From Streptomyces sp. NBC_00878 (GTDB lineage: Bacteria; Actinomycetota; Actinomycetes; Streptomycetales; Streptomycetaceae), in contig NZ_JAPEOK010000001.1 of assembly GCF_026341515.1 (NCBI RefSeq), positions 1,426,001-1,490,000 of the forward strand: a DNA stretch of 64,000 nt, read 5' to 3'. A program made the position numbers and the translations under genes. The notes under the pieces were generated by a model. That model did no database searches. It saw only the letters and a program-made list of their open reading frames with translations, and was not told where the DNA came from. Numbering within the stretch: position 1 is the first letter of the stretch; each line of letters opens with the position of its first letter. Below, piece by piece: positions 52,292-63,707 of this stretch.

Positions 52292-53452
52292 TCAATGCTT
52301 GACCCGCATACCACCGGTCACGGTTTGACGTCCACGGGCCACGGCGAGACGGCTCGCGCCCACCACGGTGCCGCTGTCGCCGACCGTGCTGCTGACCACT
52401 TCCGTGGGCCAGCTCAGCCGGGCCAGCTCGGCCCGTACACCGGGCAGGAGCTGCGGATACGCTCCGGTGCCGCCACCCAGCACGATCAGTCCGGGGTCCA
52501 GTACGGCGGCCACGGCGGCGGCGAGCCGGCCCACGTCGGCCGCGTGCCGGCCGACCACGGCGCGGGCCGTGACATGGCCCTCCTCGGCGAGCGCGAAGAG
52601 GCGCTCGGCGGTACGCGGGCACGGGCCGTCGGCGGCCTGCCAGGCCTCCTCGGCCCGGCGCAGGAGGGAGGGCGAGCCGATGCGCTCCTCCAGGGCCTCC
52701 TGGCGCGGTTCGCGGCCGTCGTCCCAGGGGTAGGGCAGCCGGGCCACCTCTCCCGCGGCGCCGTTCGCGCCGCGCAGCACCTGGCCGCCGATGACGACGC
52801 CGAGGCCGATGCCCACGCCGATCCGCAGATAGCCGAAGGTGTCTCGGCCTCTGGCGGCGCCCTCGTGCAGTTCGGCGAGCGCGGCGCAGTTGACGTTGTT
52901 CTCCAGGTGGACGGGCACGCCCGGCGGCAGCGCGACGGCCACGGCATCGAAGACCGGTCCCGCCTTGGCGGTCGCGGGGCGCATTCCGGCGCCCTCCCGG
53001 TCCTGGGCGGTGACGTCGCCGACGGCGACGACGATGGCGCGCAGCGGGGCACCCACCGGCAGCGCGTCCAGCGCCTTGCGTACGGTGTCGGCGGCCTCCG
53101 CCCGGGAGCCGGTGCCCTGGGCGAGCAGGGTGCCGTCCAGGGCGCAGCCGCGCACCCGGGTCTGGCTGGGCCCGAGGTCGACGGCGAGCACGGCACCGGC
53201 GGCGGGCCCGAGCCCGTAGACCGCGGCGGACCGGCCGGTGCCGCCGGAGACGGTGCCGGAGTGGGTGGCGAGCTCGGCGGTCTCCAGCTCGGCCACGGCC
53301 GAGGAGACGGTCGGCTTGGACAGACGTGCGCCGGCCGCCAGTTGGGGGCGGGTGGCCGTGCCCGCCTCGGCCAGTACGGCGAACACCGCGCTGGCGCTCT
53401 CGCTCAGGTTCATGCGCTCCCTCAGGTCATGCCGCGGCGGTCCGGTCACCAT
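52292..53452 (-). CDS. ROK family transcriptional repressor
   Basis: 386 residues. Seen: N-terminal winged helix (RPQLAAGARLSKPTVSSAVAELE, ~34-56) and a ROK sugar-kinase-like domain (VLAVDLGPSQTRV; LENNVNCAALAE; GIGLGVVIGG). The zinc CxCGxxGC motif is not obvious, as in some repressor members. ATG 53452 keeps the family-like HDLRERM start; ATG 53413 with GAGGGAG upstream is the alternative. Upstream of the ABC operon and divergent from a BadF-type kinase; likely regulator of both. Confidence 0.88.
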   Translation of the reverse strand: MVTGPPRHDLRERMNLSESASAVFAVLAEAGTATRPQLAAGARLSKPTVSSAVAELETAELATHSGTVSGGTGRSAAVYGLGPAAGAVLAVDLGPSQTRVRGCALDGTLLAQGTGSRAEAADTVRKALDALPVGAPLRAIVVAVGDVTAQDREGAGMRPATAKAGPVFDAVAVALPPGVPVHLENNVNCAALAELHEGAARGRDTFGYLRIGVGIGLGVVIGGQVLRGANGAAGEVARLPYPWDDGREPRQEALEERIGSPSLLRRAEEAWQAADGPCPRTAERLFALAEEGHVTARAVVGRHAADVGRLAAAVAAVLDPGLIVLGGGTGAYPQLLPGVRAELARLSWPTEVVSSTVGDSGTVVGASRLAVARGRQTVTGGMRVKH

Positions 53453-53495
53453 GGTGGTACGGCACCGGAATTCCGTACCCCTTGACGCACCCTAC

Positions 53496-53519
53496 TTCGT
53501 TAGTTAACTTCCTAACGAA
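53496..53519. promoter_or_regulatory. Palindromic operator TTCGTTAG-N8-CTAACGAA
   Basis: Perfect 8-bp arms separated by 8 bp (TTAACTTC) in the ROK/BadF divergent gap. Its TTAGTTAAC look resembles ROK-type operators such as xylose repressor sites. TTGACG lies 8 bp upstream on the plus strand. Candidate autoregulatory site. Confidence 0.65.
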
Positions 53520-53673
53520 CTCGCGCGGTACACGCCTGCCGCGTTCATCAGAGGCCCGTCCCGGGGCTTCCCGAGAACTCGTCCGAAGACACCATCGCTC
53601 GCCCCGCCCGATCCACGGTTCGCCCGCCGTTCGCTCCGCATGCGCGGTACCGCGCAACGACGAAAGAGGCTGC

Positions 53674-54612
53674 GTGCAGGACCCCACGCCCATCGCCGTC
53701 GGCATCGACGTGGGCGGCACGAAGACGCATCTCCGCGCCGAGGCCGGGGGAAACCCCGGCCCCGGGCAGAGTCCGGTCGCCGATCAGGTGCGTACGAGCG
53801 CCGATCACGTGCGTTCGAGCAGTGGCTGGCGGCCCCACGATCCCGCGTCCGCCGCCGCGTGGCTGGCCGCGCTGATCGGCGACGCGTTGCCCCAGCACAC
53901 CCGCCCGGCCGCGGTGGCCGTCGGCGGGCACGCCTGTGAGACGCCTCGCCAGTGCGAGGAGATCCGCTCCGCACTCCATACTCTTCTCGGTGTCCCCTGC
54001 CTCGTCGTGGGCGACGCCGAACTCCTCGTGCCCGCCGCGGGCCTGGACAAGGGTGTCGGTCTCGTCGCCGGCACCGGTTCGGTCGCGGTGGGACGACGGC
54101 CCGACGGAGGCCCGATCCAGGTCGGCGGCTGGGGCGCGGTACTCGGCGACGAGGGCGGCTCGGCCGGTCTCGTACGCGAGGCCGCGCGGGCCGTCTGGGC
54201 GGCACATGACCGCGGCGATCCGCCGGATGCCCTCGCGGCCCGGCTGATCGCCGCCTTGGACGTTCCCGAAGTCCCCGCGCTGGGCGCGGCGTTGGAGAGC
54301 GCGGCCCAGCCGTCCGCCGAGTGGGGGCGGCACGCGCCCAGTGTGTTCGCGGCGGCCGAGGACGGTTCGCCGCTCGCCCGCCGGGTGATCGCCGACGGCG
54401 GCCGCGCGCTGGCGTCGCTCGTCGTACGGCTCGCCCGGCGCGGTGTTCCCGTGGACGACGTGGTGGTGGCGGGCAGCACGGTGCTCGTCCAGCCCGCGCT
54501 GTACGGGGCGTTCACCGACGCGCTCGCCGAAGCGCTGCCGTCGGCGCGGCCCCGGCCGCTGCGCGTACCGCCGGTGGCGGGCGCCGTGGCGCTGGCGCGG
54601 TCGCTGCTGTGA
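53674..54612 (+). CDS. BadF/BadG/BcrA/BcrD-type ATPase, GlcNAc-kinase-like
   Basis: 312 residues. Seen: N-terminal ATPase phosphate motif GIDVGGTKTHL, AVGGHA, VVGDAELLV, GLVAGTGSVA and a C-terminal adenosine motif VVVAGSTVLVQPAL, matching the N-acetylglucosamine-kinase branch of the family. GTG 53674 has AGAGG four bases upstream. Probably phosphorylates an amino sugar or sugar taken up by the adjacent ABC importer and sensed by ROK (inference). Confidence 0.88.
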   Translation: MQDPTPIAVGIDVGGTKTHLRAEAGGNPGPGQSPVADQVRTSADHVRSSSGWRPHDPASAAAWLAALIGDALPQHTRPAAVAVGGHACETPRQCEEIRSALHTLLGVPCLVVGDAELLVPAAGLDKGVGLVAGTGSVAVGRRPDGGPIQVGGWGAVLGDEGGSAGLVREAARAVWAAHDRGDPPDALAARLIAALDVPEVPALGAALESAAQPSAEWGRHAPSVFAAAEDGSPLARRVIADGGRALASLVVRLARRGVPVDDVVVAGSTVLVQPALYGAFTDALAEALPSARPRPLRVPPVAGAVALARSLL

Positions 54613-54756
54613 GTTCCGTGCGTGCCCGCCCGAGGGCCCGATCCGGTTCCAGGACCGCCGAGTTGACCACTCCAGGGTGAGTCAACGGGTTCAAGTCGCG
54701 TTCGCCGCTTTCGCGTTCATCCCTTCCGTCGCAACTCCAGAAGGAGAGGCACCTTC

Positions 54757-56694
54757 ATGCCCGGTGCGCAATCCCGTCCCCCTCGTGACAGATCCGGTGT
54801 CGACCGGCGGGTGTTCCTGCGGACGTCCGTGGGTGTCTCGGCCGGACTGGTCGCGGGCCCCGCGGTGGTGGCCTGGCCAGCGCCCACGGCCTCGGCCTCC
54901 GTGAACGCGTCGGCCGCCTCGACCGTCTCGACCGCCTTCGTGGACTCGTACACCACGAACGTCATCGGGAACCTCACGTCCGAGACCAACGCGGCCGTGC
55001 ACATCCTCGACGGCTTCGCGCGGATCTGGAAGACGGGCACGGCCTGGAACACCGGCACCCCGCTCATGCCCGAGACCCTGCGCGCCAACATGCGGTACTG
55101 CGCGCGCGTCACCCGGCGCCGCACGGAGGCCGAGGCGCGGACGGCCTTCATCCAGGACCGCCAGCACCAGAGTTACGCGGTGATCGCCGGCCTCGGGCCG
55201 CTCGCCGACCTGTACCGGAGCGGGGCCAAGGCCGTCACCGGCATCACCTCGGCGCCGGACGGCATCCCGGCGGGCAAGATCAACGACACGCTCCCGGCCG
55301 ACGCGCCCGCGGGCTCCGCGCTGGGCGCCGGTTCCTACACCTCGGACCTGGGCAAGGTCGCCGAGCTGGTCGACACGGTGCGCGGCCCGTTCGCGTCGAG
55401 CAACCCCTCCAAGCTCGCCTACCAGTACCCGCGTCCGTGGCGCATGAACGAGGACAGCGAGGTCGTCGACACGGGGAGGACCGACGAACTGGGCTTCCCC
55501 GTCTACGAGTCGGACGTCGTGGTCGTCCCGCAGCTGCTGCGGCAGCGGGGCTCCGACCCGGCCGACGACGGCGGCTTCAGCAGCGGCCACACGAACGCCT
55601 TCTATCTGGCGGCGCTGGCCATGGCGTACGCGGTCCCCGAGCGGTTCCAGGAACTGGTGGCCCGCGCCTCCGAGCTGGCCCACACCCGCATCGTGGCGGG
55701 CATGCACAACACCGTGGACGTGGTCGGCGGCCGGGTCCTCGCCACGGCCCTCGCGGCGGCGGCGCTCGCCGACCCGAAGAACGCCGACCTCAAGTCGGCG
55801 GCCCGCGCCCAGGCCTCCGCGTACTTCCAGGAGCGGACCGGCACGACCGCGGACACCCTGTACGCGTACGCGCACTCGGCGGGCCGCGACACCGACCCGT
55901 ACGCGGACCGGTCCGCCAACTGGGCAGCGGTGCGGCCCAGGTTGACGTACGTCCTGCCCAAGGGGCACGCGCACGATCACCGCATGACCGTGCCGAAGGG
56001 TGCCGAGGTCCTGCTGGAGACACGTCTGCCGTACCTCACGGCGGCCCAGCGGCGCGAGGTGCTGCGGACGACCGCACTGCCCGCCGGTTACGTCCTGCTG
56101 GACGGCTTCGAGCAGTGGGGGCGGCTGAACCTCTTCGCCGCCGTCGACGGGTACGGGGCCTTCGACACGGATGTGCGCGTCGCACTGGATGCCGCGGCCG
56201 GTGGTTTCGGCGCCGCGGACATCTGGCGCAACGACATCGGTGGCCGGGGCGCGCTCGTCAAGCTCGGCACCGGCGCGCTGACGCTCACCGGCGACAACGC
56301 TTACTCCGGCGGCAGCACGGTGGAGGAGGGGGTCCTCGCGACCGGTTCGGCGGACGCGCTCGGCTGTGGTGATGTGTGGGTGAACGGCGGTGCGCTGCGG
56401 GTTGCTTCGCCGCTGCGGGTGGGGGGCTCGTACGTCCAGGCGTCCGGTACGACGCTCGACGTCACGCTCGGCGGGGGTCGCGTACCCGCCCTGAAGGTGA
56501 GCCGACGGGTGCTGCTCGACCGGGGCGCCGAGCTCGTCGTACGGCTCGACGACTCCCTCCGTCCGAGGCGGGGTGCCGTCCTGCCCGTGATCGAGAACCG
56601 GGCTCTGCGGGGGCGGTTCGGAAGCGTCACTGTGGACGGGTTTCATGCCGAGCCGGTGTTCACGGCGCGGGGGCTGTCCGTGCGGCTCGCGTAA
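54757..56694 (+). CDS. Secreted PAP2 phosphatase fused to autotransporter-type beta-strand repeat
   Basis: 645 residues. Seen: Tat leader DRRVFLRTSVGVSAG (~16-30). PAP2 motifs are in order: KLAYQYPRP (Lys222...Arg-Pro ~230), SSGH (~275-278) and TRIVAGMHNTVD (Arg311, His317, Asp321). Residues ~500-535 (LVKLGTGALTLTGDNAYSGG and continuation) match the autotransporter-associated beta-strand repeat. The rest of the C-terminus is beta-rich. It acts outside the cell as an acid phosphatase or related hydrolase. Such repeats are typical of Gram-negative type V passengers; in an actinomycete they probably form a short beta-helix stalk. Confidence 0.85.
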   Translation: MPGAQSRPPRDRSGVDRRVFLRTSVGVSAGLVAGPAVVAWPAPTASASVNASAASTVSTAFVDSYTTNVIGNLTSETNAAVHILDGFARIWKTGTAWNTGTPLMPETLRANMRYCARVTRRRTEAEARTAFIQDRQHQSYAVIAGLGPLADLYRSGAKAVTGITSAPDGIPAGKINDTLPADAPAGSALGAGSYTSDLGKVAELVDTVRGPFASSNPSKLAYQYPRPWRMNEDSEVVDTGRTDELGFPVYESDVVVVPQLLRQRGSDPADDGGFSSGHTNAFYLAALAMAYAVPERFQELVARASELAHTRIVAGMHNTVDVVGGRVLATALAAAALADPKNADLKSAARAQASAYFQERTGTTADTLYAYAHSAGRDTDPYADRSANWAAVRPRLTYVLPKGHAHDHRMTVPKGAEVLLETRLPYLTAAQRREVLRTTALPAGYVLLDGFEQWGRLNLFAAVDGYGAFDTDVRVALDAAAGGFGAADIWRNDIGGRGALVKLGTGALTLTGDNAYSGGSTVEEGVLATGSADALGCGDVWVNGGALRVASPLRVGGSYVQASGTTLDVTLGGGRVPALKVSRRVLLDRGAELVVRLDDSLRPRRGAVLPVIENRALRGRFGSVTVDGFHAEPVFTARGLSVRLA

Positions 56695-56703
56695 CCGCTG
56701 CCG

Positions 56704-56745
56704 GCGGAGCGCTCCGCGATCACGCTCCGCTGGGAGCGCGGTGAT
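56704..56745. terminator. GC-rich hairpins after the PAP2 gene
   Basis: The palindrome GCGGAGCGCTCCGC (56704-56717) is followed by a stem ATCACGCTCC / GGGAGCG-GGTGAT. Lies between convergent genes, so more likely terminator than operator. Confidence 0.55.
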
Positions 56746-56781
56746 GTGTCTGCCGGTCAGTGGGGGCTGGTCGCGCCCACG

Positions 56782-56821
56782 ATGGGGGTCCCCCCGCTCG
56801 AGCGAAGCCGAGAGTGGGGGG
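56782..56821 (-). repeat. Copy C of the GC-rich repeat (inverted)
   Basis: Reverse complement of copies A and B (CTCGAGCGAAGCCGAGA core) between the PAP2 gene and the ATP-grasp ligase. Confidence 0.85.
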
Positions 56822-56898
56822 AGGAGCCGCAAAACGTCACAGCCCCGCGCCCCTGAAGGGCGCGTCGGCGCCGGGGCCCGACCCGGCGCCGACGTGCG

Positions 56899-57888
56899 TC
56901 AGTGGCCCTCCACCAACCACGCCCTTTCCCCGTTGGACGGTGTGGTCCTCGGGACCGGGGCCGCCAGCCAGTCGGCGACCGTGCGTGCGATGGGCTGGCC
57001 CGAATCGATCTGGACGAATCCGAACTGGCCGGACTGGTTGCACTCCAGGAACCACCACATGCCGTCGGCGTCCTCGGCGAAGTCGAAAGCGCCGTAGGCC
57101 AGTTCGGCCTCCCGGAGATAGGTGACCACGCCGGCGGCGACGCACGACGGTACGTCGGCGGGGCGCCACGGCGCGTCGGAGGTGGCGAACCGTACGTCCA
57201 CCTCGTCGGGGTCGGCGACCGGGTCGACCGCCTTGCGGGCGGCGTGGATCCGGTCGCCGACACAGGTCAGTCTGATGTCGGCCCGCTTGGCCACCCGCCG
57301 TTGGAGCAGGGTCGGGCCGTAGGCGACGGCCGCGAAGTCCGTGTCGGGCGCGACCCGGCTGGTGGGCACCGCTCTGGGCGGCTCCTGCGGGTGCGCGCCC
57401 GACACGGGCTTGACCACCAGATCCGGGAAGCGCTCCGCGAAGTCGCGGGCGGCCTGCGGGAACGTGGTGATCAGGGTGGCGGGTACGGGAAGGCGGCTGC
57501 GCTGGGCGAGGTGGAGCTGCCAGGGCTTGTGGCGGGCCCGGCGAGCCGCGTCGGGGTGGTTCATCCAGCGCGCGCCGGTGGAACGCAGCATGCCGTAGAG
57601 CGCCTGCGCGGACTCCTCGCTCAGCCAGTCCGAGGGCTCGGCGACCCGGCTCGCGGGCACGCCGGGCCTGCGGACCCAGACCGACCGCAGCCCGTTCATG
57701 CTCACCAGCCGGCCGCCGACGGACAGGTGTCCGCGGAAGGCGCCGTGCACGTACTCCCCCGACAGGGCCACCGGGCCCGGCAGGTCCGCGGGGTCGAGGC
57801 GGACGACCGGGACGCCACTCCCGTCCAGCTCCGCCACCACCATGTCCGCGGTCACATCCTGTTCGCACGTCAGGATCAGAACCGTCAT
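56899..57888 (-). CDS. ATP-grasp ligase for RiPP (graspetide) maturation
   Basis: 329 residues, ATP-grasp fold, cytoplasmic. Seen: an N-terminal pre-ATP-grasp domain (MTVLILTCEQDVTADMVV), the ATP-binding lysine strand LVVKPVSGA, and the C-terminal metal-binding WWFLECNQSGQFGFVQ with E-x-N. This matches the MvdD/TgmB-type peptide maturases, which form ester or amide links between Asp/Glu and Ser/Thr/Lys side chains of a precursor. It follows the precursor gene by 15 bp. No methyltransferase or transporter is adjacent; the next gene is the convergent PAP2 phosphatase. Confidence 0.88.
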   Translation of the reverse strand: MTVLILTCEQDVTADMVVAELDGSGVPVVRLDPADLPGPVALSGEYVHGAFRGHLSVGGRLVSMNGLRSVWVRRPGVPASRVAEPSDWLSEESAQALYGMLRSTGARWMNHPDAARRARHKPWQLHLAQRSRLPVPATLITTFPQAARDFAERFPDLVVKPVSGAHPQEPPRAVPTSRVAPDTDFAAVAYGPTLLQRRVAKRADIRLTCVGDRIHAARKAVDPVADPDEVDVRFATSDAPWRPADVPSCVAAGVVTYLREAELAYGAFDFAEDADGMWWFLECNQSGQFGFVQIDSGQPIARTVADWLAAPVPRTTPSNGERAWLVEGH

Positions 57889-57903
57889 CGTCGCGGTCCG
57901 GCC

Positions 57904-58095
57904 TCAGTCGTCGAAGTGGGTCTTCGAGCCCGCCGTGGAGGTAGTGGCCCCCAACTCCCGCAACACGGCGTAGTCATGAGCGGCGAGCCGCCCGTCAGGG
58001 AGCACGTTCAACTGCAGTCTGGAGTCATAGGCATACGGAACGCTGACCTCCAACTGCTGGGCCGGACGGGCGTAGTTGAGCGCGAACGGTCGCAT
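57904..58095 (-). CDS. Putative ATP-grasp-modified RiPP precursor
   Basis: 63 residues. ATG 58095 is preceded by AAGGAGA at 4-5 bases and opens the family-type leader MRPFALNYARP. The open frame continues upstream but has no such signal. The C-terminal tail TTSTAGSKTHFDD (51-63) offers hydroxyl donors Thr51, Thr52, Ser53, Thr54, Ser57, Thr59, amine Lys58 and acceptors Asp62, Asp63. It belongs with the TgmA-type precursor class of graspetides. The 12-bp gap and shared strand make the ligase its dedicated partner. Confidence 0.88.
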   Translation of the reverse strand: MRPFALNYARPAQQLEVSVPYAYDSRLQLNVLPDGRLAAHDYAVLRELGATTSTAGSKTHFDD

Positions 58096-58133
58096 CGGTT
58101 CTCCTTGCTCGGTGCGAACCCGGTGAAGCGGAT

Positions 58134-58153
58134 CGTGACGCTCCGGCGTCACG
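58134..58153 (-). promoter_or_regulatory. Hairpin in the RiPP precursor leader
   Basis: 8-bp perfect stem with TCCG loop, 38 bp before the precursor start. Could be an operator or an RNA hairpin. Confidence 0.55.
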
Positions 58154-58232
58154 TCGCCTGACAGGTTTGCAGGGCTTCCACGGAGATATACGAATCGAAC
58201 AGGCGAATGGTTGCCTCACGCAGCGTAGTCAT

Positions 58233-58249
58233 CGGACCAATACGGTCCG
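58233..58249. promoter_or_regulatory. Palindrome CGGACC-N5-GGTCCG
   Basis: 6-bp perfect arms, 138 bp before the precursor start, near where its promoter would lie. Confidence 0.45.
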
Positions 58250-58280
58250 TGACGTGATCCGGCTGGGCCGATCCTCCGTG

Positions 58281-58306
58281 CATAGGACACCCATTCGCCT
58301 CCTATG
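58281..58306. promoter_or_regulatory. Palindrome CATAGGA-N12-TCCTATG
   Basis: 7-bp perfect arms separated by 12 bp; AT-richer than the surroundings. Candidate operator for either divergent gene. Confidence 0.45.
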
Positions 58307-58683
58307 ACGCACACCCCGGGGTTATGGATCCGGGGTCGAGCCGCAGTTCAGCGCACTGGCGCACACCTTCGTCCATCGAACGCCCCGCACGCCCTTGACG
58401 TGCCCGGGAGCCGGCAGCGCTTGAACTCGCCGGTCCACGGGTCGTCGTACATGTCCGGCCGGGGCCGTAAATTTCATTCGGAGGACACCCCCCTCACAGC
58501 TACTCTCGTAGCGCTTCCCGATCTCCCCGCCCCGTCGCCGACACATCGCCGGCACACCGCGGAGCCCTTGCCGACCCCTCACGGAGCCCTCACCGAGCCC
58601 CTGCCGGCCTCATACTGAAGTCCCGCTCCGGCCTGTTTTCAACCCATTTTTGTCCCGTTCCGACCGTCAACCGGAGGCAGCCC

Positions 58684-59904
58684 ATGGATCAGTTGCAGCA
58701 AGAAGTGGATCCGGCCGAGGTCGGTCTGGACCCGGTGGCGCTGGACCGTCTCGACCGGTTCTTCGCCCGCCGCGTGGACGACGGTCTGCTCCCCGGGTAC
58801 CTCATTTCCGTGGCTCGTCACGGCCGAGTCGCGCATCTCACGTCGTACGGCCTGCGCGACCGGGAGGCCGGCATTCCGGTCACGGCGGACACGGTGTGGC
58901 GGCTCTACTCGATGACCAAGCCGGTGGTGTCCGTCGCCGCGCTGATGCTGCACGAGGAGGGCCTGCTCGACCTCGACACCCCCGTCTCCCGCCATCTTCC
59001 GGCCTTCGCCGACCCCCAGGTCTACGAGAGCGGCACGGGCGACGACATCAGGACCCGCCCGGCCGAGGGCCCCATCCTGGTCCGGCACCTCCTGACCCAC
59101 ACCGCGGGTCTGACCCTCGGCGCGTACCGCACCCACCCCGTGGACGGCCTCTACCTGGCCGCGGGCGTCGAGATCCAGGCGCCGAAGGACGCGGACCTCG
59201 CCGAGGCCTGCGAGGTGTACGCGAGTCTGCCGCTCCAGTTCGAGCCGGGTACCGAGTGGAACTACTCGGTCGCGACCAATGTGATCGGACGGCTCATCGA
59301 GGTGGTGACGGGCCGTCCGCTGGACGCGTTCCTCACCGAGCGGATCTTCGCGCCGCTCGGGATGACGGACACCGGCTTCTGGGTCTCCGGAGAGCGGGCG
59401 GACCGGCTGGCCGTCCTCTACGAGGAGGGCCAGGACGGCAGGATCGCCCCGATCCCGGGCCCGCCGGTGCGCGAGCGCCCGCGCCTGCTCTCCGGCACCG
59501 GCGGGCTGGTGGGGACGGCCCGCGACTACCACCGCTTCATGGAGTTCCTCCGCCGGCGCGGCGAACTCGACGGCGCCCGGCTGCTGTCCCCCAAGGCCGT
59601 GGACACCATGGCCGCCAACCACCTCCCCGCCGACCTCCACGTCTTCGGCAGCAAGCCCATCCACGGACAGCCGGGCAACGCGGGCCTCGGCTTCGGCCTC
59701 GGCGTCTCGGTCGTGGTGGACGCGGACCGCACTCAGTCCCCGGAGAGCGAGGGGTCGTACGGCTGGAGCGGCGCGGGCGGTACGACGTTCTGGGTCGACC
59801 CTCGCAACGATCTGACCGTGCAGTTCATGGCGCAGCTGCGGCCTGCGGGGATGCTGTCCTTCCACGAGCTGAAGGGGTTCGTGCACGAGCCGCTCGGCGG
59901 CTGA
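58684..59904 (+). CDS. Serine hydrolase, beta-lactamase class C / esterase EstB-like
   Basis: 406 residues, no signal peptide. Seen: nucleophile motif SMTK (Ser-x-x-Lys) near 77, Tyr motif NYSVATNVIG near 196, and LLTHTAGLT. A C-terminal WSGAGGTTFWVDP segment takes the place of the KTG box. This family includes esterases and D-aminopeptidases. Preceded by GGAGGCAGCCC. Acts on a small ester or amide in the cytoplasm; role with the divergent RiPP unclear. Confidence 0.9.
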   Translation: MDQLQQEVDPAEVGLDPVALDRLDRFFARRVDDGLLPGYLISVARHGRVAHLTSYGLRDREAGIPVTADTVWRLYSMTKPVVSVAALMLHEEGLLDLDTPVSRHLPAFADPQVYESGTGDDIRTRPAEGPILVRHLLTHTAGLTLGAYRTHPVDGLYLAAGVEIQAPKDADLAEACEVYASLPLQFEPGTEWNYSVATNVIGRLIEVVTGRPLDAFLTERIFAPLGMTDTGFWVSGERADRLAVLYEEGQDGRIAPIPGPPVRERPRLLSGTGGLVGTARDYHRFMEFLRRRGELDGARLLSPKAVDTMAANHLPADLHVFGSKPIHGQPGNAGLGFGLGVSVVVDADRTQSPESEGSYGWSGAGGTTFWVDPRNDLTVQFMAQLRPAGMLSFHELKGFVHEPLGG

Positions 59905-60039
59905 GCCGGTCGCTCACAGGACAGCCCCCGCTCCCGGACCTCGAAAGCAAGGAATCTGCAAGCGCCCGGCAAGGACACCGTCCAGCCGGGCGGGAAGGAC
60001 GTCCCCCGACGAAATCGGCTGTACGACACGGGGGATGTC

Positions 60040-61266
60040 ATGTCGGCATTCAGTACGTCCACGGGGTCCGGGAGGCCCCCTGTCCGTCAGTGGCTGACGC
60101 TGACCGGACGCAAGACCGTCCTGGTGGTCGCGCACACCGTGACCTACGGGAAGAGGCTCCTCGACGTGGTCTCGTTGCTGGAGTCGGACCTGCGGGTCCA
60201 GGTGGTGTTCACGGTTCCGCCGCACGAACTCGGCGACGGGGCCGCTCGGTTCCTGCGCCGGTCGGGCAGCGCAGTGCTGCCTTGGGAGGAGGCCGTGCGC
60301 ATGGACTTCGACCTGGCCCTCGCGGCGGGGCCACGCGCCATGGAGGAGGTACGCGCCCAGGTGGTGCTCCTGCCGCACGGGGCGAACTTCCTGAAGCGCC
60401 TCGTCGGAGCCGCGGACTGCCAGGTTCTGGGACTCAGGCGGGAGGACGTGCTGCTCGGCGGGAGAGTGCCCGCCGCGGTGGTCCTCGCGCACGAGGACGA
60501 CCTCGGTGAGCTGGCGCGGACCTGCCCGGAGGCGCTCGGGGCAGCCCGTATGGTGGGTGATCCCGTACGCGACCGCATCGCGGCCAGCCTTCCCGTGCGG
60601 GACGTCTACCGCCGGGCGCTCGGGCTCGACGAGGGACGAGAACTCATCGCCGTGACCTCCACCTGGGGCCCGGATTCGGTGTTCGCCCGGTTCGAGATGC
60701 TGCTGCCCCGTCTGATGGACGAGGCACGCGGTACCGCGCAGAGACTCGTCGTACTCGTCCATCCCAATGTGTGGTCGGGGCACGGTTCCCGGCAGGTCCG
60801 GGCGTGGCTCGCCTCGTGGGCGGAACGGGGCCTCGGGGTCGTACCGCCGGACATGGACTGGCGGTCGGTGCTGTGCGCGGCGGACCTGATCATCGGCGAC
60901 CACGGTTCGGTGACCTTGTACGGGACGCTGACCCGGGCTCCGATTCTGCTCGCGGCGACCGCGGACCAGGAGATCAACCCCGCCTCGCCCGCTGCGGAAC
61001 TGGCGATGCTGGCCCCGGCACTCTCGCCGTTCCACACCCTGTCCGAGCAGTTCGCGTACGCGGCCGCCGAGTACCGCAGGCCCGCGTACGAGGCCATCGC
61101 GGCGCGGATCACGTCCGAACCGGGGCGGTTCAACCGGAACATGAGGGCACTGCTCTACCGGCTGCTCGGTCTGGGGCAGCCCGCACACGATCCGGTGACG
61201 TCCCTCCTCCCAGTGCCGGATCCGCGCCAGGTCTGGTCCGGCGCCGGGAGGGGGGTGTCGGCGTGA
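60040..61266 (+). CDS. GT-B-like protein, possibly CDP-glycerol/nucleotide-sugar enzyme
   Basis: 408 residues. Seen: beta-alpha repeats of a two-lobed Rossmann (GT-B) fold; VVLLPHGANFLKR; AVTSTWGPDSVF; and a C-terminal nucleotide-binding segment DLIIGDHGSVTLYGTL that resembles UDP-GlcNAc epimerase and CDP-glycerol glycerophosphotransferase active sites. No signal peptide. I cannot name the reaction. GTGA overlap with the next small gene implies a functional pair. Confidence 0.65.
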   Translation: MSAFSTSTGSGRPPVRQWLTLTGRKTVLVVAHTVTYGKRLLDVVSLLESDLRVQVVFTVPPHELGDGAARFLRRSGSAVLPWEEAVRMDFDLALAAGPRAMEEVRAQVVLLPHGANFLKRLVGAADCQVLGLRREDVLLGGRVPAAVVLAHEDDLGELARTCPEALGAARMVGDPVRDRIAASLPVRDVYRRALGLDEGRELIAVTSTWGPDSVFARFEMLLPRLMDEARGTAQRLVVLVHPNVWSGHGSRQVRAWLASWAERGLGVVPPDMDWRSVLCAADLIIGDHGSVTLYGTLTRAPILLAATADQEINPASPAAELAMLAPALSPFHTLSEQFAYAAAEYRRPAYEAIAARITSEPGRFNRNMRALLYRLLGLGQPAHDPVTSLLPVPDPRQVWSGAGRGVSA

Positions 61267-61775
61267 GGGCTCGGCCGGGTCACGTCTGGTCCGGGGCCTG
61301 TCTGGCCGCCGACGTCGACCGTGCCGAGAGTCGCACGGATCTCGCGGACGTCCTCCATGGCCATCGCCCGCGACGGGATGTCGGGGACGCGACGGTGGAG
61401 GCGTTGGAGCTGCTGGTCTCCCACCCGGGTTGCGCACTGGTCCTGCTGCCACTCGTCGACGGTGGCTGGGTGGCGGTCGCGCGGAGGGCCGGCTCGCCCC
61501 TGGATCTGCCCGGTTCGGTTTCCGCGGCCGTCCGGTACGCCCGGTGCACCCGGTACGCATCGGGCCGGTTCCTGTGTTCACCCGGCGGGCAGGCTGTCGA
61601 GGCGTTCCCTGAGCCGGCCGGCGTCCTCGACACTGATCGGCGCGCACAGGGCGAGGGAGCGCAGGTAGTAGTCGCGCGCGGTATCCGCGCGGCCGCTGTC
61701 CTGTGCTGTCTGCCCGAGCATTTCAAGGGTGCGGGCCCGCCAGTGGACCGACCCGGAGTGCTCGAACGTCCCTAA
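61263..61775 (+). CDS. Small unknown protein paired with the GT-B-like gene
   Basis: 170 residues if the frame is read to its stop. Starts with GTG inside the stop of the upstream gene (GTGA). The first ~100 residues (TVEALELLVSHPGCALVLLPLVDGGWVAV and around) look coding, alpha/beta. The last ~65 residues overlap the 3' end of the convergent NB-ARC gene on the other strand and may be a read-through tail. Family not recognised. Confidence 0.5.
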   Translation: MRARPGHVWSGACLAADVDRAESRTDLADVLHGHRPRRDVGDATVEALELLVSHPGCALVLLPLVDGGWVAVARRAGSPLDLPGSVSAAVRYARCTRYASGRFLCSPGGQAVEAFPEPAGVLDTDRRAQGEGAQVVVARGIRAAAVLCCLPEHFKGAGPPVDRPGVLERP

Positions 61776-63707
61776 CGCGCTGAGAAGTTGAGCCGTACCG
61801 GACGCGTGCTCTCCCGCAGCGGCGCGTGCGCGGCCCAGGAAGGCCAGCGCACGGGCCGTGTCGTGCGGATCCGGTACTGCCGCGAGTGTGGCGTGGGCGC
61901 GGTCGAAGTGCCGTACGGCGAGCGGGGGATCGCCCGCGGCGAGGGCGATCTCGCCGAGCACGATGCGGGCCAGGCCGGTGCCGCGGGAGTAGCCCGTCTC
62001 CTTCCACGCGGTGATGGCCCGGTCCAGGTACGGGACCGCCTCCGTGAGCCGTCCGGCCTCGTAGTGGGCCGCGCCGATGCCGAGCAGGGCCTGGCCCTCG
62101 TCCCTGCGGTCACCGGCCAGCCGGGCGGCCTCGCGTGACGCGCCGTACCAGGCGATCGCCTGGTCGATGCGGCGGGCGGCACTCAGGCCGATGGCACCGG
62201 AGTTGAGCATCTGGCGTTCCGCCGCGGCATGGCCGGCGAGCCGGGCGGCGGTGAGCCCTCGCTCGTGCGCCTCGATCCACAGGTCGTAGTAGCGGAGCTT
62301 GAGGAACAACGGCCACATGGCGTCGGCCAGTTGCCACACGAGGGTGTGCCAGCGGCGGTCCTCGGCCGTGCGCAGCACGGTCATGAGGTTCACCCGGTGC
62401 CGGTCCAGCCAGCTCAGCGCGCCGGTCTCGTCCGTGAACGGCACCGCCAGGTACGGCTGATGGACGTGGTCCCGGTCCAGCGTGAACTGGGCGGGAGTGA
62501 TCAGCTTCTCGGCCTCCGTCGCCGTGGCGAGATACCAGTCGGCCACCCGGCGGACGGTGTCGTCCGCCTCGTCCTCGGTACCGCGTTGCCGGGCATGGAG
62601 GCGGATCAGATCGTGGAATCTGTAGCTGTCCGGGCCCGGGTCCTGGAGCAGATTGGCCTCCACGAGGACGTTGAGCAGTTCGTCCGCCTCGTGGAGCGTG
62701 TGTCCGCCGGCCGAGGCGGCGATCCTGCCGTCCAGTTCGGGCAGGGGCAGGTGCCCCAGTCGCCGGTAGAGCCGGGCCGCCGGGGCCGGCAGGGCTTCGT
62801 AGGAGTCGTCGAGCGCTCCGCGCACCGCTGTTTCTCCGTCCACCGTGAGCAGGGCCAGTCGGTCTCCGGGCCGAGCCAGCGCGTCGGCCATGGCGCGCAG
62901 AGACTGCCGGGGCCGCGCGGCCAGACGGGCCGACGCCACGCAGACGGCCAGGGGCAAGCCCGCACACAGGGACACCACGCGGCGCGCGGCCGCCGGGTCG
63001 CCCTCCACCCTGTCCCTGCCGATGCCCCGGATCAGCAGTTCCTCCGCGGCATGCGGCGGCAGCACGTCGAGCGAGTGGAAGACCGCCCCGTCGATGCGCA
63101 GGCCGGTCAGCCGTCGGCGACTGGTGACCACGACGAGGCTGTGCTCCGAACCGGGCAGCAGAGGGCGCGCCTGCGCCGCGGTACAGACGTTGTCGAGCAT
63201 GACGGCGAGCCGCAGGCCCGAGGTGAGCGAGCGCCACAGCGCGGCCTGTTCGGCGAGGTCGGCGGGTACCGGACCGGGATACAGGGCGCGCAGGAACCGG
63301 CCGAGTACCTCGCTCGGCGATGCCGCGTCCTCAAGTGTGTGACCGCGCAGGTCCGCGTAGAACTGCCCGTCGGGAAAGTCGGCGCCGGACGTGCGGAGCC
63401 ATCTGGTGGCCAGCGAGGTCTTGCCGACTCCGGCGGCGCCCGTCACCACGACCAGGCCGGTGCGGTGCGCGGAGAGCTCCCGCAGTGCCGCGAGATCGCT
63501 CTCACGGTCGGTGAAGTGCGGTGGCGCGGGCAGCAGTTGACGGGGCACGGGTACGTCCGGCGTCGGCTGATGGACATGGATCCCACCATGCACATCACCT
63601 GCCTGGACGGTGACTCCGGTCAGTCGTGCCGAGCCGCTGATCCTGTTGGTGTGACCGCTCACGCTCGCCCCCGTAGTCGAATCCGAGCAGACACGCGGCA
63701 CGGGCAT
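61578..63707 (-). CDS. NB-ARC (STAND) ATPase with TPR repeats and RHIM-like N-terminus
   Basis: 709 residues. Seen: N-terminal motif NRISGSARL followed by GVTVQAGDVHGGIHVH (~31-46). The NB-ARC domain has P-loop TGAAGVGKTS (~89-98), Walker B LAVMLDNV and GLPLA. TPR-like helical pairs fill ~430-690 (AHYEAGRLTEAVPYLDRAI, LGEIALAAGDPPLAVRHFD). There is no SARP DNA-binding domain as in AfsR. GTG 63659 with GGGGGCGA upstream fits shorter family starts; ATG 63707 is the longest. Divergent from a SARP gene, which may be its output partner. Confidence 0.88.
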   Translation of the reverse strand: MPVPRVCSDSTTGASVSGHTNRISGSARLTGVTVQAGDVHGGIHVHQPTPDVPVPRQLLPAPPHFTDRESDLAALRELSAHRTGLVVVTGAAGVGKTSLATRWLRTSGADFPDGQFYADLRGHTLEDAASPSEVLGRFLRALYPGPVPADLAEQAALWRSLTSGLRLAVMLDNVCTAAQARPLLPGSEHSLVVVTSRRRLTGLRIDGAVFHSLDVLPPHAAEELLIRGIGRDRVEGDPAAARRVVSLCAGLPLAVCVASARLAARPRQSLRAMADALARPGDRLALLTVDGETAVRGALDDSYEALPAPAARLYRRLGHLPLPELDGRIAASAGGHTLHEADELLNVLVEANLLQDPGPDSYRFHDLIRLHARQRGTEDEADDTVRRVADWYLATATEAEKLITPAQFTLDRDHVHQPYLAVPFTDETGALSWLDRHRVNLMTVLRTAEDRRWHTLVWQLADAMWPLFLKLRYYDLWIEAHERGLTAARLAGHAAAERQMLNSGAIGLSAARRIDQAIAWYGASREAARLAGDRRDEGQALLGIGAAHYEAGRLTEAVPYLDRAITAWKETGYSRGTGLARIVLGEIALAAGDPPLAVRHFDRAHATLAAVPDPHDTARALAFLGRARAAAGEHASGTAQLLSALGTFEHSGSVHWRARTLEMLGQTAQDSGRADTARDYYLRSLALCAPISVEDAGRLRERLDSLPAG

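Follow-up and report, generated by a model that had tools for sequence, protein, structure and literature searches.

The window, i.e., the whole 64,000-nucleotide stretch of Streptomyces DNA that was analysed, carries on its reverse strand a gene for a 63-residue peptide which is followed, after a gap of 15 bp (57889-57903), by a gene for an ATP-grasp ligase (Table 1). The open reading frames thereby agree with an earlier note made from the sequence alone, which had described this arrangement and assigned the pair to the ATP-grasp RiPPs of the TgmA/TgmB-like kind. The precursor begins with MRPFALNYARP and terminates in TTSTAGSKTHFDD, and the comparison with graspetide family models proposed in that note bears its assignment out: the precursor matches PF14404 ("Strep_pep") with 123.2 bits (cut-off 25) over residues 1-63 of 63 and TIGR04186 with 40.5 bits (cut-off 25), and the adjacent ligase reaches 380.2 bits against TIGR04187 (cut-off 350). 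Since both proteins exceed curated family cut-offs, their pairing is not due to chance. The ligase falls far short of the microviridin ligase models, with 124.8 versus 425 bits for TIGR04185 and 106.7 versus 475 bits for TIGR04184. Homologues of the precursor number 274 at E <= 0.001, many of the best 120 of them bearing the public name "putative ATP-grasp-modified RiPP". In these best 120 of 274, the leader residues F4, L6, and Y8 are present without exception and N7 is present in 117, and this leader motif presumably serves in ligase recognition, as known for the family. A sequence search of the PDB gave no solved structure for the precursor (best match at E 0.053, unrelated), and the predicted AlphaFold model of the ligase is poor (mean pLDDT 49).

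Table 1. Features of the gene pair and of the PF00144 genes near it (window coordinates unless a locus is named).
Feature	Position	Strand	Basis
Precursor peptide, PruA-type, Strep_pep, 63 aa	57904..58095	-	ATG at 58095; PF14404 and TIGR04186
ATP-grasp ligase, PruB ortholog, 329 aa	56899..57888	-	TIGR04187; identity to PDB 9BOU
Leader motif MRPFALNYARPA, residues 1-12	58060..58095	-	Residue conservation among homologues
Core TTSTAGSKTHFDD, residues 51-63	57907..57945	-	Most residues unchanged in 151 of 152 distinct precursors
Ribosome-binding site AAGGAG	58101..58106	-	Sequence
Promoter-like element GCAACCATTCGCCTGTTCGATTCGTATA	58187..58214	-	91 bp ahead of the start codon; conservation
PF00144 serine hydrolase, beta-lactamase superfamily	58684-59904	+	Pfam match
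PF00144 serine hydrolase of S. prunicolor	L279:3739-4896	-	

The closest solved relative of the ligase found by sequence search is PDB 9BOU (528 bits, residues 1-313), entitled "Crystal structure of ATP-grasp ligase PruB from Streptomyces coelicolor A3(2)", with which it shares 239 of 313 aligned residues (76%) without gaps. As regards the precursor, a scan across genomes in which TAGSKTHF was one of two patterns gave 377 confirmed matches, the best 80 of which were retained (hereafter the 80-locus set); all 80 end in TTSTAGSKTHFDD, in part by construction since TAGSKTHF was itself a scan pattern. Among them is Streptomyces prunicolor NBRC 13075, the source of prunipeptin, whose precursor (locus L279, positions 2501-2692, 83% identity over 63 residues) ends in TTSTAGSKTHFDD, the same 13-residue core as in the window, and is preceded by the same kind of upstream element. 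The S. prunicolor genome contains three TIGR04187 ligases. Behind two of them lies a TIGR04188 methyltransferase (462.2 and 393.1 bits against a cut-off of 380); behind the ligase of the pair L279/L340 there is none. The prunipeptin cluster is reported to comprise just two genes, PruA and PruB, and the product is reportedly bicyclic, with one ester and one Lys isopeptide. By exclusion of the two methyltransferase-bearing loci, and from this reported two-gene cluster, we take the pair L279/L340 to be pruA/pruB, and the window pair is therefore its ortholog. The window thus holds an ortholog of PruB, a core equal to that of the S. prunicolor precursor (itself probably PruA, by the exclusion given above), and two genes without a methyltransferase or a transporter, as is reported for the prunipeptin cluster. 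Taken together, these data identify the pair as a prunipeptin-type (PruA/PruB) graspetide operon with a probability of about 93%; the product, which the earlier note had held not to be evident, is of an already known type for which a relative of the synthetase has been crystallised.

The same note had pointed out that the usual methyltransferase and transporter are missing. Their absence was confirmed, as neither was found among the six proteins scanned around the pair (52292-63707), but it is no oddity: the methyltransferase-free and transporter-free state is normal for the prunipeptin type, and the S. prunicolor pair also has no methyltransferase. A context set was built from the window and 20 stretches of 19 kb, which amounts to 20 loci once L046, devoid of a Strep_pep precursor, is set aside. 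The ligase adjoins the precursor in 20 of 20 loci and is the sole gene adjacent throughout. Homologous pairs do occur in many genomes, as the note had required. A synthetase and a precursor alone also make up groups 27, 28, and 35 in the accessible part of a recent survey (PMC13097080).

Could the missing enzyme act from elsewhere, the peptide being cross-linked and then aspartimidylated in trans by the methyltransferase of another graspetide locus, as a graspimiditide of group 13? Besides two Strep_pep loci, the window's genome has a third, methyltransferase-bearing graspetide locus (L046), next to which lies the only TIGR04188 match of the genome above cut-off (C1:4338482), about 2.9 Mb from the pair. 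This methyltransferase, however, is accompanied by a precursor of a different type, and the S. prunicolor pair likewise stands apart from methyltransferases. Moreover, the Asp residues of the core are confined to positions 62 and 63, both needed as acceptors, so that no Asp is left in the macrocycle loop for aspartimide formation and a methyltransferase would not be needed, which makes this reading very improbable. As a side observation, the ligase of the third locus (G000:C1:4337503-4338431) aligns with TIGR04187 as two segments that overlap (model positions 1-156 and 150-312), and its frame therefore looks broken or misassembled; in L057, the second Strep_pep locus of one genome, the ligase is called as pieces of 141 and 122 residues and may be broken too.

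The earlier note had also suggested that the product may be unusual, intracellular or PAP2-processed. Maturation of such a peptide by the adjacent protein of the PAP2 family is not supported by the comparison. The PAP2 gene lies some 200 bp past the ligase, and its place is kept in near relatives, namely in one of the 19 other loci of the context set (L064) and in 9 of the best 80 of 377; these nine are confined to L259-L271, the 13 closest entries. Nevertheless, it is encoded on the opposite strand, convergent with the pair and outside the operon, and it is missing from the other 18 of the 20 loci and from 71 of the best 80 of 377 (flanks of at most 2.5 kb), including S. prunicolor. Enzymes of the PAP2 family act as phosphatases or haloperoxidases and are not known as peptidases. 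The gene is thus kept by near relatives and not by the family; PAP2 as a part of the system was rejected on this ground, and maturation by it is scarcely credible. The PAP2-family protein (54757-56694, + strand) also contains a passenger-associated transport repeat (PF12951), an autotransporter motif that is odd in a Gram-positive.

Within the context set, the window, L064, and L045 contain a PF00144 serine hydrolase (in the last about 8 kb from the precursor). So do 16 of the best 80 of 377: in 8 near relatives it lies upstream of the pair, while S. prunicolor and 7 further loci have it on the opposite side. Most of the loci compared have none. The window's genome contains only 20 PF00144 matches in 11.1 Mb, and a PF00144 protein is also mentioned for the corallotide (group 15) cluster in the accessible part of the above survey (PMC13097080). 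This hydrolase could be a maturation enzyme, a self-protection enzyme, or a chance neighbour, and its occurrence next to the pair in certain sub-lineages leaves some doubt about a limit of two genes. In addition, a small gene without a Pfam family, c6, lies upstream in 6 of the 20 loci; it neighbours pairs of the main class, and tblastn did not detect it in the window. Further out, the window encodes a 408-residue protein (60040-61266, + strand) for which neither Pfam nor NCBIfam gave a match at E <= 0.1, a homologue of which is near the pair in L064 only among the 20 loci, and a protein with NB-ARC and tetratricopeptide repeats (61578-63707, - strand) that is related to AfsR and scores under the AfsR cut-off.

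PF14404 is found above cut-off in 215 of 392 Streptomyces genomes, and more than half of the sampled genomes of the genus thus keep the peptide with a nearly frozen core. In a sample of the order, it is above cut-off in 194 of 391 genomes, the rows listed being nearly all Streptomyces, with matches at E <= 0.001 in 3 of 10 genera. The looser tallies at E <= 0.001 amount to 219 in the genus sample and 200 in the order sample; the cut-off counts are preferred because these tallies take in weak matches inside open frames of more than 600 residues. Such a spread resembles that of the prunipeptin gene-cluster family, for which the accessible part of a preprint (PMC11888242) gives 3,589 members, 99.53% of them from Streptomyces.

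Precursors were read from 203 of 212 loci, some of which are the same place, to give 152 distinct sequences; the nine loci without a precursor include L179 and L187, both above the family cut-off. The sample was drawn by similarity searches, and its proportions are therefore not population frequencies. The core offers T51, T52, S53, T54, S57, K58, and T59 as possible donors and D62 and D63 as possible acceptors. Whereas T51, S53, A55, G56, S57, T59, H60, D62, and D63 are unchanged in 151 of the 152 distinct precursors, Lys58 is variable: position 58 is Lys in 99 (plus a shifted Lys in an outlier, L178), Gln in 33, and Ala in 19, i.e., Gln or Ala in 52, and Lys54 occurs in seven. The window's genome, too, encodes a Gln58 precursor (C1:5747401-5747586) with its ligase. 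The 13-residue ends are distributed accordingly, with TTSTAGSKTHFDD in 90, TTSTAGSQTHFDD in 31, TTSTAGSATHFDD in 13, TASTAGSKTHFDD in eight, TTSKAGSATHFDD in six, and TASTAGSQTHFDD, TASTAGSKTHWDD, TTSKAGSQTHFDD, and the outlier once each. This outlier (L178/L186, G303), for which the family search gives two neighbouring matches about 40 bp apart, has a divergent precursor ending in TQSSAGSKTHDDDTD, with extra acceptors in the tail and possibly a further ring. When the 80-locus set is added, 184 precursors are distinct, and the main core, found in 122 of them, is written in 93 DNA spellings, which argues that it is kept by selection and not by recent copying. On a ligase tree of 150 rows built by a quick method, which takes in one row with a very long branch and probably a wrong frame (L042), the Lys58 label needs five changes, at least three of which are forced by well supported branches. 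The accessible literature on prunipeptin and PruB contained no discussion of this variability.

Upstream of the precursor gene, the promoter-like element GCAACCATTCGCCTGTTCGATTCGTATA has a single match in the 11.1 Mb genome even when up to three mismatches are allowed. A motif, GMAACCAWTCANYCGTTCGATTCGTATAA, is recovered in 67 of the 78 distinct upstream regions at 0-3 mismatches (three for the window copy, 58187-58214), while the best of 50 single-base shuffles per region has at least nine; the 11 other regions have at least 11 mismatches and belong to the Gln58/Ala58 classes, except for one with Lys58 (L125). As the motif was built from the same regions, this fit is not independent, and counting across the genus provides a better test: among 392 Streptomyces genomes, 133 contain the pattern GTTCGATTCGTNTA, with 136 sites in total, and none contains it when it is read backwards. 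At least 122 of these 136 sites lie 30-130 bp upstream of precursors, among the 150 listed, 28 of which have no exact copy. Of the 14 sites unmatched to listed precursors, three were read, two of them preceding a precursor and one (L235) not. In the best 80 of 377, GTTCGATTCGT is found within 200 bp upstream in 61 loci. The other precursor classes, at least several Lys58 precursors outside the main class included, have related, different elements, e.g., GTGATGAATTCCTTACG...CGTA or CGTACTGTTACGTG. In precursors of the VRPFTL type, mostly with Gln58 or Ala58 (e.g., L127-L155), a second conserved block, TGTGATGACCTTCACC, precedes GTGATGAATTCCTTACG and shows a GTGA-N6-TCAC symmetry reminiscent of an operator pair.

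The element therefore hardly varies within the main class and is seldom found anywhere but at the precursor gene. Membership in a larger regulon was considered and rejected, there being one site in the window's genome and, genus-wide, sites nearly always at the precursor gene; a search of Rfam for a known RNA element returned nothing relevant (one match at E 0.71, far below the gathering score). The skeleton, GCAACC-N16-CGTATA, is similar to the sigma-E target CGCAACC...CGTCTT of the cwg operon (PMC6767563), the ECF-type match being judged by eye. In the accessible part of that article, the listed sigma-E sites have no common spacer sequence; for this reason, a dedicated regulator would be as likely behind the element as an ECF-type promoter. 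Regulation of PruB-type pairs found no treatment in the accessible literature on prunipeptin, PruB, and the family names.

As to ring number, donors, trimming, and export, the following scheme is what we infer. The ligase would bind the leader motif MRPFALNYARP, use ATP to phosphorylate the Asp62 and Asp63 side chains, and join these to side chains within the same tail. Two links are expected because the core has two acceptors, both invariant, and the product would thus be a small bicyclic C-terminal peptide characterised by two losses of 18 Da. Since prunipeptin reportedly has one ester and one Lys isopeptide, the amide would likely be formed by Lys58, and the ester donor would be one of Thr51, Ser53, Ser57, and Thr59. 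If so, the ring pattern must differ in the Gln58 and Ala58 relatives. Removal of the leader, near Gly49, is probably left to a general host protease; for the graspimiditides, the accessible part of one report (PMC12291112) describes the native proteases as not known. That the pair might be a relic, retained and making nothing, could be imagined from the 177 of 392 sampled Streptomyces genomes without a match above the family cut-off; nonetheless, neither frame is interrupted, the core remains invariant despite variable codons, and the upstream element has been retained, so that hardly any weight is left for it.

Under the preferred reading, a working prunipeptin-type operon, the pair might provide one conserved product serving Streptomyces itself, e.g., by inhibiting proteases of the producer or of its neighbours or by acting as a signal, with expression from a dedicated and perhaps stress-type promoter. 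More tentatively, at somewhat below even odds, the cross-link chemistry of the prunipeptin family may have changed several times through gain, loss, and movement of Lys (at position 58, at position 54, or absent) while the rest of the core stayed frozen, the Lys-free members being all-ester or having fewer rings, and a dedicated genus-wide promoter with a sigma-E-like -35/-10 skeleton would speak for a conserved role in Streptomyces physiology and against a niche weapon. The finding closes a question rather than opening one, as the "unknown" product is of a known and ordinary graspetide type. Two leads are worth keeping, namely the conserved upstream switch, nearly frozen in the main class alongside the core, and the shifting lysine, whose Lys58/Gln58/Ala58/Lys54 series is a natural experiment on the choice between ester and amide by one ligase family.

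Among known systems, prunipeptin of S. prunicolor (PruA/PruB; Unno and Kodani, 2021) is like the window pair in its two genes, 13-residue core, ligase family, and kind of upstream element. It differs in the leader and linker of the precursor (83% identity over 63 residues), in residue 50, which is Thr in S. prunicolor and Ala in the window, and in the PF00144 gene, downstream of the pair in the former and upstream in the latter. The departure of the window ligase from PruB of Streptomyces coelicolor A3(2) (PDB 9BOU) is ordinary divergence between orthologs. With respect to Strep_pep (PF14404), which, in the accessible part of one article (PMC8939145), goes back to families in an ATP-grasp survey from 2009, the window precursor matches over its full length and shows no difference that matters. 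Finally, the graspimiditides of group 13 (fuscimiditide, amycolimiditide, and albusimiditide) have the precursor and ligase models TIGR04186 and TIGR04187 in common with the window pair, as judged from the methyltransferase-bearing loci described above, but they possess an adjacent TIGR04188 methyltransferase and a loop Asp, neither of which the window pair has.
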